Of a DNA stretch of 33,728 nt, positions 4,829 through 33,155 are shown in pieces. The first letter of the stretch is position 1. Each line of letters begins with the position of its first letter. The notes beneath the pieces were generated by a model. The model made no database searches. It was not told where the DNA came from and worked only from the letters and a program-made list of their open reading frames with translations. The position numbers and the translations under genes were made by a program. The DNA is from an uncultured Chloroflexota bacterium. Lineage in GTDB: Bacteria > Chloroflexota > Limnocylindria > Limnocylindrales > CSP1-4. The stretch spans positions 1 to 33,728 of the forward strand of contig CAIYHO010000106.1 in NCBI GenBank assembly GCA_903925955.1, given 5' to 3'.

Positions 4829-6235
4829 CTAGTCCACGTCCTCCTGGATCAACCCGTCGTCGGCCAAGGGTGGCTGACCGCGCAGCTCGCGAAGGCGGTT
4901 GACGCGGTCGATGGTGCGCGGGTGCGTTGAGAAGATCCCGGCTGCGCGCTTCTCGCGAGCCCGGATGGGGTTGACAAACCAGAGCGGCGCCGTGGCGCGG
5001 TTGGCGGCAAGCAGCGCCTGGTCCGTCCGAGCCGCTCGCAGCAGCGCGCCCTCCAGTGCCGCCGGGTTGCGCCCCAGCTCCACGGCCGTGGCGTCGGCGA
5101 GGTACTCGCGCTGTCGCGACACGGCCACCTGGGTGAGGCGCGCGAACACCGGTGCAATGGCGTTGAGCACCGTGGCCACCAGCAGCAGGACAAGGACAAA
5201 GATGATGATGGCCAGGACGATGGCGAATGCATCGCCCGCGTCCGAATCGCCGCCACCGCCGCCGCTGCTGCCGCCGCCACCGCCTCCGCCACCACCGCCG
5301 CTTGACCCGCCGCCGGATGACGAGCCGCCGCCTCCCCAGTGGCCGAAGCCCCAGGAGCCGCCGCTGCCGCCACCACCGGCCGCATCCGCGATGAGCCTCG
5401 GGATCCGAAACGGCAACGTCACCACGCGGAAGAACCCGTCGGCCACCAGTACCACCGCGCCCACGCCGATGGCGGCGATCAGGCTGTAGCGGCTGTCGTA
5501 GTTGCGGATGTGGGCGAGCTCATGGGCCACCACGCCCTGGAGCTCCTCGCGCGACATGACGTTGAGCAGCCCGCGCGTCACCACCAGCACGGCGTGCTCC
5601 GGGTCACGCCCGGCGGCAAACGCGTTGGGCGCGTTCTCCTCCACCACATACAGCCCGGGTGCCGGGATCCCTGCCGCAATGGCCAGCTCGGTCACGGTGT
5701 CGCGCAATGGCCCTGCGTCATCGGCCGCCAAGGGCCGGGCAGACGAGATGCGCAGCAGCGCCCGCTCGCCGCGCGTGTAGGCCAGCCACGCCGAGGCCGC
5801 GCCAATCGCCACGGCCCCGCCGGCAAACGCCAGCCCAACGGACGTTCGCAGCGACACGACCGCCGCAATCACATAGGCGGTCAGCGCAAGCAGGACCACG
5901 ATGGCAGCCGACAGCAGGAGTGCGTCCCGCCGATTGACGGCCGCCTGCGACCAGAACGTATCGCCTGCGGGCGCGATGCGGTGCAGCACCAGCGGCGTCA
6001 CCACCAGCAGGATCAGCGCAACCAAGAGCACCACCGCCGGCTCCCACGGGGTAATCCCCAGCGGCCCCGGCTTGAAGGTGAACGGCAGGACGCCGTACTC
6101 GCCCACGTAGTACACAACCAGCGCCGTGATCAGCGGCACCAACACCAGCACTGCGATGAACGCCAGACCGATGCGGCCGTAGTCAGCGTCGGCAATCCCT
6201 GAGGCGATCTGCGAACGATCCCCCCGCTTGCTCAT
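4829..6235 (-). CDS. M48-family (HtpX-like) membrane zinc metalloprotease with Gly-rich insertion
   Basis: VVAHELAHIRNYDSRYSL (HExxH), REYLADATAVELGRNPAAL; N-terminal TM segments. Confidence 0.9.
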   Translation of the reverse strand: MSKRGDRSQIASGIADADYGRIGLAFIAVLVLVPLITALVVYYVGEYGVLPFTFKPGPLGITPWEPAVVLLVALILLVVTPLVLHRIAPAGDTFWSQAAVNRRDALLLSAAIVVLLALTAYVIAAVVSLRTSVGLAFAGGAVAIGAASAWLAYTRGERALLRISSARPLAADDAGPLRDTVTELAIAAGIPAPGLYVVEENAPNAFAAGRDPEHAVLVVTRGLLNVMSREELQGVVAHELAHIRNYDSRYSLIAAIGVGAVVLVADGFFRVVTLPFRIPRLIADAAGGGGSGGSWGFGHWGGGGSSSGGGSSGGGGGGGGGGSSGGGGGDSDAGDAFAIVLAIIIFVLVLLLVATVLNAIAPVFARLTQVAVSRQREYLADATAVELGRNPAALEGALLRAARTDQALLAANRATAPLWFVNPIRAREKRAAGIFSTHPRTIDRVNRLRELRGQPPLADDGLIQEDVD

Positions 6236-10058: not shown

Positions 10059-10172
10059 TTGACCCACGCCTGACTCAGGACACAACCCGGCACACACGGT
10101 TCGGACCCCGGGACGCGGTTTCGGGGTCCGGACTCTGCACGATGCACGCCCCGGTGAGTCTGAGCTGGGTCG
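10059..10172 (+). repeat. TGASTCA palindromic intergenic element, copy 1
   Basis: Left end ttgacccacgcctgactcag (10059-10078), right end tgagtctgagctgggtc (10155-10171), conserved internal ctctgcac (10133-10140), central hairpin cggaccccg/cggggtccg (10102-10110/10122-10130). Confidence 0.75.
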
Positions 10173-21900: not shown

Positions 21901-21929
21901 CGGCCCAGGCGTCCGCTCACGCCCCCCGT

Positions 21930-22042
21930 GACCCACCACAGACTCACACGGCGCCTCACCGTGCAGAGCTCGGCGCCTGATGGGTCGCCTTCCGCCTCGA
22001 ACCCTGCACGCCGATGTCGATGCTGAGTCAGGCGTGGGTCAA
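21930..22042 (-). repeat. TGASTCA palindromic intergenic element, copy 2 (inverted relative to copy 1)
   Basis: ctgagtcaggcgtgggtcaa (22023-22042) is the exact reverse complement of 10059-10078; other end gacccaccacagactcac (21930-21947); inner gtgcagagctcg (21961-21972). Confidence 0.75.
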
Positions 22043-30518: not shown

Positions 30519-30946
30519 CGCTGCGGGACGCGGACAAGCCCCAGCGCCCGCGGCGCCCGCTCCTGCTGGAGTTGGCATCCGCGTTCATGATCGTGAACGG
30601 GCTGCTGAGCACGTCCGCGTCCGCCACCATCGTCATGAAGCTGGGCGAGACGCCGGGCGTCGGGGATCCGGGGGTCCTGCTCCTGATCACGCTTGCCATC
30701 GGCATCAGCACGATCGTGCTGGGCATCCTCATCCGGTATGCCCGCGCCTGGATCGTGGCGCTCAACGTCGCGGCCGTGGCGGGCTTCCTCGAGCTCACCG
30801 CCGGCAGCCAGCCGGGCCTGATCGTGGGCCTGCTGGACGTGTTCGTCGTGTTGGCGCTGCTGATGACCCGGCCCTGGTTCACGTGGTCGCCGGACGGCGC
30901 CGCTGATCAGGACGCGGCCGAAGGCGCCGCAGCCGAAGGCGCGTGA
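30515..30946 (+). CDS. small membrane protein, unknown function
   Basis: 4-bp overlap with upstream gene; four hydrophobic segments. Confidence 0.65.
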   Translation: MTLRDADKPQRPRRPLLLELASAFMIVNGLLSTSASATIVMKLGETPGVGDPGVLLLITLAIGISTIVLGILIRYARAWIVALNVAAVAGFLELTAGSQPGLIVGLLDVFVVLALLMTRPWFTWSPDGAADQDAAEGAAAEGA

Positions 30947-30955
30947 AACCACCCC

Positions 30956-31068
30956 GAATTCACGCCTGACTCAGGCCGCGGGGTGACGCGCAGGGTTCGT
31001 GCCCCCAAGTCGCGGTTCGCCCTTCGAGCTCTGCACCCGGGACGCAATCCTGAGTCACTGGTGAATTC
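30956..31068 (+). repeat. TGASTCA palindromic intergenic element, copy 3
   Basis: gaattcacgcctgactcagg (30956-30975) vs inverted cctgagtcactggtgaattc (31049-31068), 17/20 matching; inner arms gcgcagggttcg / cgagctctgcac. Confidence 0.85.
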
Positions 31069-31097
31069 CGGAGGGGCCACTACCCTGTCCCCGCTCG

Positions 31098-31904
31098 CTA
31101 TGCCCGAAGCAGGCGCGTCGCAGCATCCGCGTAGTCCGCGTAGGCCGGCGGGCGTCGGCGCCCCCCGAGCGTTGTTGCGCCGAGCCAGTCGGCCCGTCGG
31201 CGGGCTGGGTCCGCGGTGCCGAGCACCCAGCCCTGGGGCGGCGGCCGGCTCGGATCTGCCAGCCAGGCCGCGGCAGCGTCAACTGGTCCGGGGAACGCGT
31301 GCCCGATGAGGTCGCGCTGGTCTGCAAGGCGTCGGGCGACGGTTTGCGTGTCAAGGGCGACCACCAACACGGCGACCCGCTGCGGACGCCACCCAAGCTC
31401 TCGAGCAGCCTGCCACGCCTCGCGCACATAGAAGGCGAGCGTTCGCTGCAGGGCCCCAACATCGTCAATCACGGTCTTGGTCTCCTCAACGAGGAGGGTG
31501 CGGTCAGCCTCGCGGAAGCCCAGCAGGTCAATCCAACCCTTCGGCGAATTGAGCCCCAACTGCACCTCCGACGCGGTGTGCCACGCATCGCGCTGCAACC
31601 GCCCAGCCACGTAGCCGTTGAGCCGCGCATGCAACGCCCCGCGCTGGTGGCGCCGATCCTCCAGGTGCCGGCCGTCCAGATCAAGCGTGGCCCGAATGCC
31701 CAGCGCCGCAAGCACGGACGCTAGCGCTCGCAGGTCAAGGTCAGCCCGGGCGGTCTCAATCCTGCAGACCATCGACTGCGACGTGTGGGCCCGGATGGCG
31801 AGTTCCTGCTGCGTCCAGCCGATGAGCTGCCGCGCCTCCTTGACGAGGTCCGCAACCTGCCCCGGCATGCCGAGTTGGCCGAGTTGGATCCTGGTGCCTG
31901 CCAT
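31098..31904 (-). CDS. XRE-family HTH protein with C-terminal PD-(D/E)xK-like domain
   Basis: HTH: LVKEARQLIGWTQQELAIRAHTSQSMVCRIETARADLDLRALASVLAALG; C-term: GLNSPKGWIDLLGFREADRTLLVEETKTVIDDVGALQRTLAFY (D...ExK). Confidence 0.8.
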   Translation of the reverse strand: MAGTRIQLGQLGMPGQVADLVKEARQLIGWTQQELAIRAHTSQSMVCRIETARADLDLRALASVLAALGIRATLDLDGRHLEDRRHQRGALHARLNGYVAGRLQRDAWHTASEVQLGLNSPKGWIDLLGFREADRTLLVEETKTVIDDVGALQRTLAFYVREAWQAARELGWRPQRVAVLVVALDTQTVARRLADQRDLIGHAFPGPVDAAAAWLADPSRPPPQGWVLGTADPARRRADWLGATTLGGRRRPPAYADYADAATRLLRA

Positions 31905-31926
31905 GGGCAGACCCTAGCGAACCGCG

Positions 31927-31943
31927 CTTATCCCAGCCTTATC
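31927..31943. promoter_or_regulatory. tandem CTTATC with 11-bp period upstream of second XRE gene (putative operator)
   Basis: cttatc at 31927-31932 and 31938-31943; first copy 23 bp upstream of start codon, same as at 4481. Confidence 0.6.
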
Positions 31944-31974
31944 TGGATGGGCCTCTACCGCCGCGCGACGCCGC

Positions 31975-32170
31975 GAATTCGCCCCTGACTCAGCCCGCGA
32001 ATTCACCCATGACTCAGACCACGGCCTGACACGCAGGGCTCGATCCCGCAAGTCGCGGTTCGCCCCGCGAGCTCCGCACCCGGGGCCTGATCCTGAGTCA
32101 CCGGTGAATTCAGGGCATGCCAAACGTCAGCTCCGCACCCGGGGCCTGATCCTGAGTCACCGGTGAATTC
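31975..32170 (+). repeat. TGASTCA palindromic intergenic element, copy 4, with duplicated left and right ends
   Basis: Left ends gaattcgcccctgactcag 31975-31993 and gaattcacccatgactcag 31999-32017; right-end 42-bp block agctccgcacccggggcctgatcctgagtcaccggtgaattc at 32070-32111 and 32129-32170 (identical). Confidence 0.85.
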
Positions 32171-32207
32171 CGGACGTGCTGGACGTCGCGTGGCGCCCGC
32201 CGGACGA

Positions 32208-33155
32208 TCAGCCCTTGACGCCGCCCACAGCGAGCCCGCCAACCAGGTATCGCTGGAAGACGAAGAACACCACGGATACCGGCAGGGCAAACAGGATGGC
32301 GAATGCTCCAAACTCGGACCAGGTCGTTGTTCGGGCGAAGCCGCCCACCATGCTGTTGAGGGCAATTGACAGCGTCCAGTCCGAGACGGTGCCGCCCACA
32401 AACATGTAGCAGGTGAGGTACTCGCTCCAGCCGCCCAGGAAGCCCAGGAAGCCGGTCACGGCGATGGCCGGGATGGACAGGGGCAGGATGACCTTGCGGA
32501 AGATCTGGAACTGCGTCGCGCCGTCCACGGCGGCAGCCTCTTCCAGGTCCTTGGGCACGGTGTCCAGATAGCCCTTGAGGTTCCAGATGGCGAACGGCAG
32601 CTGGCCGGCGATCACCGCGAGGATGACGCCGATAAGCGAGGCGCGAAGGTTGAACGAGAGGCCGCCGAAGTCAATCCGGAACTGGTTGAGGAAGACGTAG
32701 AGCGGGATCATCGTGGCGACGGCCGGCAGCATCAGCACGCCCAGGATGCCAATCATCAGGGCCTCTCGGCCGCGGAACCGGAGCCTGGAGAACGCATAGG
32801 CGGCGGTGACGCCCAGGAGGACAGCGACGACGGAGCTGCCCAGGGCGATCTTGAGGCTGTTGGCCATCAACCCGAAGAAGCTGATGTCATTGGTCGTGGG
32901 CCGGTTCAAGACCTTGGCGTACGCGTCCAGCGACGCGCCCGCCGGGATCAGGTTGAGCGCGTCCGGTCGAGCAATGTTCCGGGGGTCGATCGACATGCTC
33001 ACGATCCAGATGATCGGGAACAGCACTGTCAGGGTGATGAACAGACAAATGACTTGGATGAGCAACTGGCGGCTGAGCGGCAGCGGGCGCTCGGCGCGGC
33101 TGCTGTCAGCGCTCTTGCGACGGGGCTTGGATGCCGGTGTTGCGGCAGCGGTCAT
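32208..33155 (-). CDS. carbohydrate ABC transporter permease (MalG-like)
   Basis: TM protein; VPKDLEEAAAVDGATQFQIFRKVILPLSIPAIAV: EAA motif of sugar ABC permeases. Confidence 0.93.
   Translation of the reverse strand: MTAAATPASKPRRKSADSSRAERPLPLSRQLLIQVICLFITLTVLFPIIWIVSMSIDPRNIARPDALNLIPAGASLDAYAKVLNRPTTNDISFFGLMANSLKIALGSSVVAVLLGVTAAYAFSRLRFRGREALMIGILGVLMLPAVATMIPLYVFLNQFRIDFGGLSFNLRASLIGVILAVIAGQLPFAIWNLKGYLDTVPKDLEEAAAVDGATQFQIFRKVILPLSIPAIAVTGFLGFLGGWSEYLTCYMFVGGTVSDWTLSIALNSMVGGFARTTTWSEFGAFAILFALPVSVVFFVFQRYLVGGLAVGGVKG

Follow-up and report, generated by a model that had tools for sequence, protein, structure and literature searches.

A dispersed 113-bp four-box element in an uncultured Chloroflexota bacterium and its candidate partner, a helix-turn-helix protein with a predicted PD-(D/E)XK nuclease domain

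Results

A 113-bp element on both sides of an XRE-type gene

The window, by which we mean the whole stretch of 33,728 nucleotides analysed, lies on contig C106 of a 3.64-Mb MAG of 308 contigs (G000). It carries a gene for a 268-aa protein on the minus strand (31098-31904), placed between two copies of a 113-bp element. Copy 1 (30956-31068) lies 30 bp 3' of the gene and copy 2 (31999-32111) 95 bp 5' of its start; both are of the same GAATTCA/TGACTCA subfamily and neither is assigned a strand. Copy 1 has its boxes at 30956-30962, 30967-30973, 31051-31057 and 31062-31068, its core half-motifs near 30989-30999 and 31025-31035, and arm pairs of 8 bp and 9 bp, both perfect, indicating that the element with nested inverted arms reported here by the first-pass annotation is real and was placed exactly. 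The three further copies reported for the window are real as well, with two of their boundaries off by one base: copy 3 is at 10060-10172 on the plus strand and copy 4 at 21929-22041 on the minus strand, each with TGACCCA-type outer boxes and in a convergent gap. What had been taken as a single copy from 31975 to 32170 consists of the full copy 2 and of duplicated ends, namely a solo left end (GAATTCGCCCCTGACTCAG) at 31975-31993 and a 42-bp partial right end at 32129-32170, both unstranded and adjoining copy 2. The position of these end duplicates on the two sides of a full copy suggests local duplication or failed copying.

A dispersed family of constant length

The 113-bp element is a member of a dispersed family found far above chance. 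A covariance model (R1) built from a gapless 12-copy alignment identified at least 77 copies among 150 scored candidates in the element's own genome, with E-values down to 4e-24, and a fixed-length IUPAC four-box pattern matched 44 copies there versus none with the reversed control, adding copies absent from the model's matches. With one more copy beside a partner gene, the MAG has at least 87; all genomes are draft assemblies, and all copy numbers given here are lower bounds. Elements occur in 10 of the 12 genomes of the genus, one of which (G010) has a single copy, and none were found in G004 and G009. The first-pass annotation was right to propose an intergenic family of dispersed palindromes with a REP/BIME-like lifestyle: it had named the absence of further copies as its own refutation, and such copies are present in the host and its congeners. 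Many copies in G000 lie less than about 250 bp from contig ends (C2, C9, C10, C21, C37, C111, C119, C137, C148 and others; L057-L113), as though arrays of elements interrupted the assembly; the genome probably has more copies than were counted.

Exactly 113 bp was the length of 74 of the 77 scored copies in the window's genome. Counting end-to-end distances in 443 kb of own-genome sequence gave 113 bp in 42 cases, 114 bp in three and any other listed length once, and shuffled sequence, the control for this count, contained no single ends. Given that the length is held despite a median pairwise identity among copies of ~58%, a decaying repeat is disfavoured. Near-identical tandem copies, flanks included, are common; between species, orthologous copies (84-97% identity) occur alongside non-orthologous ones. 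Several of the orthologous copies are old, so that many copies may now be static.

Covarying outer boxes and sharp ends

Each copy consists of two 18-bp palindromic ends (heptamer-N4-inverted heptamer) enclosing a dyad-symmetric core with motifs around GTGCANGGTTCG..CGAACCNTGCAC. In the window's genome the outer heptamers are mostly TGACCCA, TGAGTCA or GAATTCA and the inner ones AGACTCA, TGACTCA or TGGGTCA. Congeners keep the layout, mostly at 112 or 113 bp, with heptamers that differ between species and subfamilies: G011 boxes are mostly TGACTCA..TGAGTCA, one G005 subfamily has TGGCACG..CGTGCCA, and the boxes of G006 switch in concert between TCCGTCA..TGACGGR and YCATTCA..TGAATGR. One protein reading all boxes of a copy would explain such concerted switches. 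The core motif GAGCGTGG/CCACGCTC recurs across genera (L215, L216, L222, L225 and copies in G003) despite quite different heptamer boxes.

The first-pass annotation had asked for compensatory changes in the arms. Measured against within-species shuffles, the outermost heptamers covary strongly (0.869 observed versus 0.764 expected, z ~12) and the inner heptamers weakly (z 3.4), and covariation is absent from the core (z 1.5 or less), so that the expectation held for the outermost boxes, weakly for the inner ones and failed for the core. Given that covariation is strong in the outermost heptamers only, we concluded that the conserved property is a fixed layout of half-sites and not an RNA or DNA hairpin as such. 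The long imperfect hairpin originally described thus loses its standing as the conserved property, and what is kept instead is the fixed length with four boxes resembling protein sites. The element ends are sharp and without flank homology, no pairing continues past them into the flanks, and no consistent direct repeat that could be a target-site duplication was found at the flanks of the own-genome copies or of the G016 copies described below. Outside the element, T is enriched at position -12 and A at +12, and no copy has A at -1 or T at +1; the flanks are otherwise unrelated.

Element copies in intergenic and convergent gaps

The copies are intergenic except for rare overlaps with gene ends. 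Tabulation of the flanking genes, called with a codon-usage caller, showed that 59 of 132 gaps with an element are convergent, as are 19 of the 170 gaps without one (odds ratio 6.4, p=6e-11), the background being element-free gaps of at least 113 bp from the regions chosen for containing elements. The earlier observation that three of the four window copies sit between convergent genes agrees with this tabulation. In six cases (G000 contigs C12, C47, C245, C35, C28 and C10) the terminal TGA of the element provides the stop codon for the gene next to it. No T-tract was found and 30600-32400 contained no terminator-like site; Rfam searches at gathering and relaxed thresholds returned nothing relevant. 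Single-strand folds of the elements were somewhat better than those of shuffles (z -2.3 to -4.9).

A partner gene encoding an HTH fused to a nuclease-like domain

The first-pass annotation held that no transposase ORF lies next to any copy; this is misleading, as the ORF between 31068 and 31975 is a recurrent partner gene. Its product carries an XRE-type HTH domain at residues 18-71 (31692-31853, minus strand; Pfam HTH_3, E=2.9e-6), HipB-like in sequence and in fold, followed by a PD-(D/E)XK nuclease-like domain at residues 78-195 (31320-31673, minus strand) with E113, D126 and E141-x-K143. These four residues (E113, D126, E141 and K143) are invariant across 21 homologues. AlphaFold2 models the C-terminal domain as alpha-beta-beta-beta-alpha-beta with pLDDT of 85-89; its fold matches are the R2 restriction-like endonuclease, XisH, BstEII and Hjc, at moderate TM of ~0.3-0.4, and the scattered weak Pfam matches of family members are mostly to PD-(D/E)XK families, below the Pfam cut-offs. 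In the model the domain has the fold core and the active-site residues of PD-(D/E)XK enzymes, and its nuclease activity is predicted. The HTH would be the reader of the heptamer boxes. Clustering the gene neighbours of the elements across genomes revealed only one family with every member next to an element. No match to the partner protein was found on plasmids or phages, nor did viral contigs searched with one element pattern give a match.

A genus-wide protein search separated 11 core genes, with bit scores above 180, from all other paralogs, which scored below 75. Each of the 11 core genes has an element no more than ~170 bp away, and at least seven have one on either side. At one, on contig C327 of G006, the model matched weakly (E 0.1), and the TCCGTCA-type elements beside the gene were identified by reading the sequence. 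Among 18 non-core paralog loci there was one borderline 17-bit element match and no other. Since the core genes come from searching whole genomes at the protein level, this association is free of the bias that comes with the choice of regions. The element-free genomes G004 and G009 are also without a core gene; in G002, G007, G008 and G010, all four incomplete MAGs, elements are present and a core gene was not detected.

In two genomes that have two core genes, the two pair with different element subfamilies. In G000 the C106 gene of the window has GAATTCA-type elements on both sides and the C151 gene has TGACCCA-type ones, these being the two largest box classes of that genome. In G006, TCCGTCA-type elements lie on both sides of the C327 gene, and the C328 gene adjoins a CCATTCA-type element of the YCATTCA class, and TCCGTCA and YCATTCA are the two box classes there. 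Element interiors co-segregate with box class (permutation p ~5e-4). Aligning window positions 30922-32210 with contig C243 of G007 (4910-5682) showed that the whole element-gene-element segment is missing from G007, a close relative, with unrelated sequence in its place. The two sequences diverge here over hundreds of bases, and the search for an empty site in G007 and G008 yielded none that was clean and had a precise junction.

Similar arrangements in other genera

In other genera of the family, homologues at 35-45% identity have two-ended dyads of 111-125 bp beside them, with boxes unlike those above (L222, L216/L279, L283, L278, L223 and L285). In G016 (genus g6) we found five GCATGAG..CTCATGC elements of 112 or 113 bp on four contigs, two of them bracketing the homologue, versus none in the control, and homology among these G016 copies, which are younger, stops exactly at the outer boxes. 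Other homologues outside the genus (e.g. L214, L217 and L219) showed no convincing flanking dyad, so that the wider protein family includes members without such a pairing. Dyads of 55-220 bp near distant paralogs (e.g. 67 and 149-197 bp) are close to the scan background and were left out of the evidence. Such further two-ended dyads, of 67, ~150 and 197 bp, were seen at L278:10119-10315, L238:1286-1482, L229:1354-1504, L233:303-451, L241:1281-1347 and L227:2182-2248, some of them close to HTH-nuclease genes, and may be other element families.

Discussion

The 113-bp unit is probably a dispersed element of the non-autonomous kind, with the XRE-HTH/PD-(D/E)XK product of the gene at 31098-31904, and the paralogs of this protein, as its cognate trans-acting protein. 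In the mechanism that we propose, an HTH dimer would bind each 18-bp end, and two dimers would hold both ends in a symmetric complex, with ~95 bp (9 helical turns) between the centres of the ends; there the nuclease domain would nick or cut DNA, and the element would thereby be copied or moved, with host repair completing the process. The protein gene, with an element on each side, would persist as a unit, and each paralog would serve the element subfamily bearing its boxes. The anatomy of the element, its association with the gene and the paralog pairing are observed; DNA binding by the HTH, catalysis by the C-terminal domain and spread of the element through that catalysis are inferred. We know of no case of strand transfer by a PD-(D/E)XK domain alone.

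Short palindromic repeats that go with a dedicated enzyme gene, itself flanked by the repeats, are known from REPINs, and to our knowledge the mode of their spread is still unresolved. The 113-bp element resembles the REPIN/RAYT systems and REPtrons of Pseudomonas, Stenotrophomonas and E. coli in having palindromic inverted ends at fixed spacing, a size of ~100 bp, many extragenic copies, near-identical tandem clusters with flanks, an enzyme gene bracketed by repeats and enzyme paralogs matched to repeat subfamilies. For REPINs, inverted ends at fixed distance, high copy number, tandem clusters with flanks, a repeat-flanked enzyme gene and separate repeat groups beside separate enzymes have been described (PMC3116915, PMC2817692). 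The element is likewise a fixed-length inverted doublet, extragenic and in high copy, and its enzyme gene lies next to its own repeats in 11 of 11 cases, in at least seven of these between two of them. It differs from REPINs in that its partner is an XRE-HTH/PD-(D/E)XK protein and not a Y1 HUH transposase, in that it lacks the GTAG/GT(A/G)G head, the flank columns showing no conserved GTAG, and in that both its ends are built, like a dimer operator, as double-heptamer dyads, with no covariation in the core. A RAYT in the genus is refuted at the sensitivity of our search, as Y1_Tnp (PF01797) matched in 0 of 12 genomes versus 5 of 14 control genomes. Given that no RAYT enzyme was found in the 12 genomes and that the partner protein is unrelated, we concluded that the element and its partner work like a REPIN-RAYT pair without being one.

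Likenesses to other systems are partial. MITEs and IRU/ERIC-type repeats are also short, symmetric, dispersed, intergenic and without coding capacity, whereas the 113-bp element lacks a target-site duplication, is of invariant length and has a dedicated non-DDE partner. Integron attC sites share the two-ended paired boxes (box-spacer-box ... box-spacer-box) able to pair across the element, but the boxes here are not RYYYAAC/GTTRRRY, the centre is constant in length and there are no cassette arrays. The partner's HTH is of the HipB kind and, as in XRE/HipB-type repressors, could read a palindromic operator; unlike these repressors, the protein has an added PD-(D/E)XK domain and ~100 dispersed two-operator sites instead of one promoter operator. 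The mobile-DNA PD-(D/E)XK enzymes R2 and XisH share with it, by fold search, the predicted fold and the E..D..ExK signature, and TnsA, a PD-(D/E)XK enzyme of mobile DNA, is likened to it in the same two respects; the partner differs from such enzymes in that its domain is missed by Pfam at cut-offs and in that it is an HTH fusion of ~270 aa.

The main rival to spread by the partner protein is a regulatory or architectural function of the sites for the host, in which the XRE-nuclease would be a regulator or nucleoid-type protein acting on ~100 dispersed two-operator sites, in chromosome organisation or as transcriptional roadblocks between convergent genes, and the copies would be kept by selection without spreading. 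A nucleoprotein complex of fixed shape would suit the strict length and symmetric four-box layout, some copies are conserved in orthologous places in different species, and the strong convergent-gap enrichment (odds ratio 6.4, p=6e-11) is in keeping with such a role. We nevertheless regard it as unlikely, as it leaves unexplained the bracketing of the gene by elements, the pairing of paralogs with different subfamilies, the near-identical tandem copies and the presence or absence of elements at orthologous loci, and has no need of conserved nuclease residues. The convergent gaps also bear on a function as RNA or DNA hairpin, be it a mobile bidirectional terminator, as the first-pass annotation had suggested, or an mRNA-stabilising 3' structure; the element TGA serving as a neighbour's stop codon in six cases and the folds somewhat better than shuffles point the same way. 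The enrichment would be expected from simple promoter avoidance too, the core stems are without covariation and the inner boxes weak in it, and neither a T-tract, a terminator-like site nor an Rfam family was found, which makes a hairpin function quite improbable; for the bidirectional terminator in particular, the enrichment stands against the missing T-tract.

Two kinds of known mobile element were weighed as well. MITE relics, another suggestion of the first-pass annotation, here taken as derived from an ordinary DDE insertion sequence whose terminal repeats are of the TGACCCA type, would account for the inverted terminal repeats, the small size and the dispersal, yet conflict with the absent target-site duplication, with the strict length, unexpected among highly diverged copies of a decaying MITE, and with a recurrent partner that is non-DDE; we hold this very improbable. 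A true REPIN, that is REP doublets moved by a Y1 HUH transposase, would be suggested by the fixed-length inverted doublet, the high copy number, the tandem clusters and the element-flanked enzyme gene, but with no Y1_Tnp, no GTAG head in the ends and a partner made of HTH and PD-(D/E)XK it is barely credible.

Going one step beyond the locus, we lean towards a new class of dispersal system, in which an XRE-HTH/PD-(D/E)XK protein would mobilise a fixed-length, palindromic four-box element in trans; its origin would be independent of RAYT-REPIN systems, and it would occur in several genera of this Chloroflexota family, with HTH specificity and boxes coevolving. A literature search, the coverage of which left out most subscription journals, found nothing on this pairing of protein and repeat. 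Given that each paralog pairs with a different box subfamily in two genomes, the DNA-recognition code is directly testable. A role is now suggested for a protein family that is widespread in the bacterial family and known to Pfam only as 'helix-turn-helix'. If the proposal is true, an unrelated second enzyme has REPIN-like habits, which would point to repeated evolution of this lifestyle and add an independent system for testing how such repeats spread.
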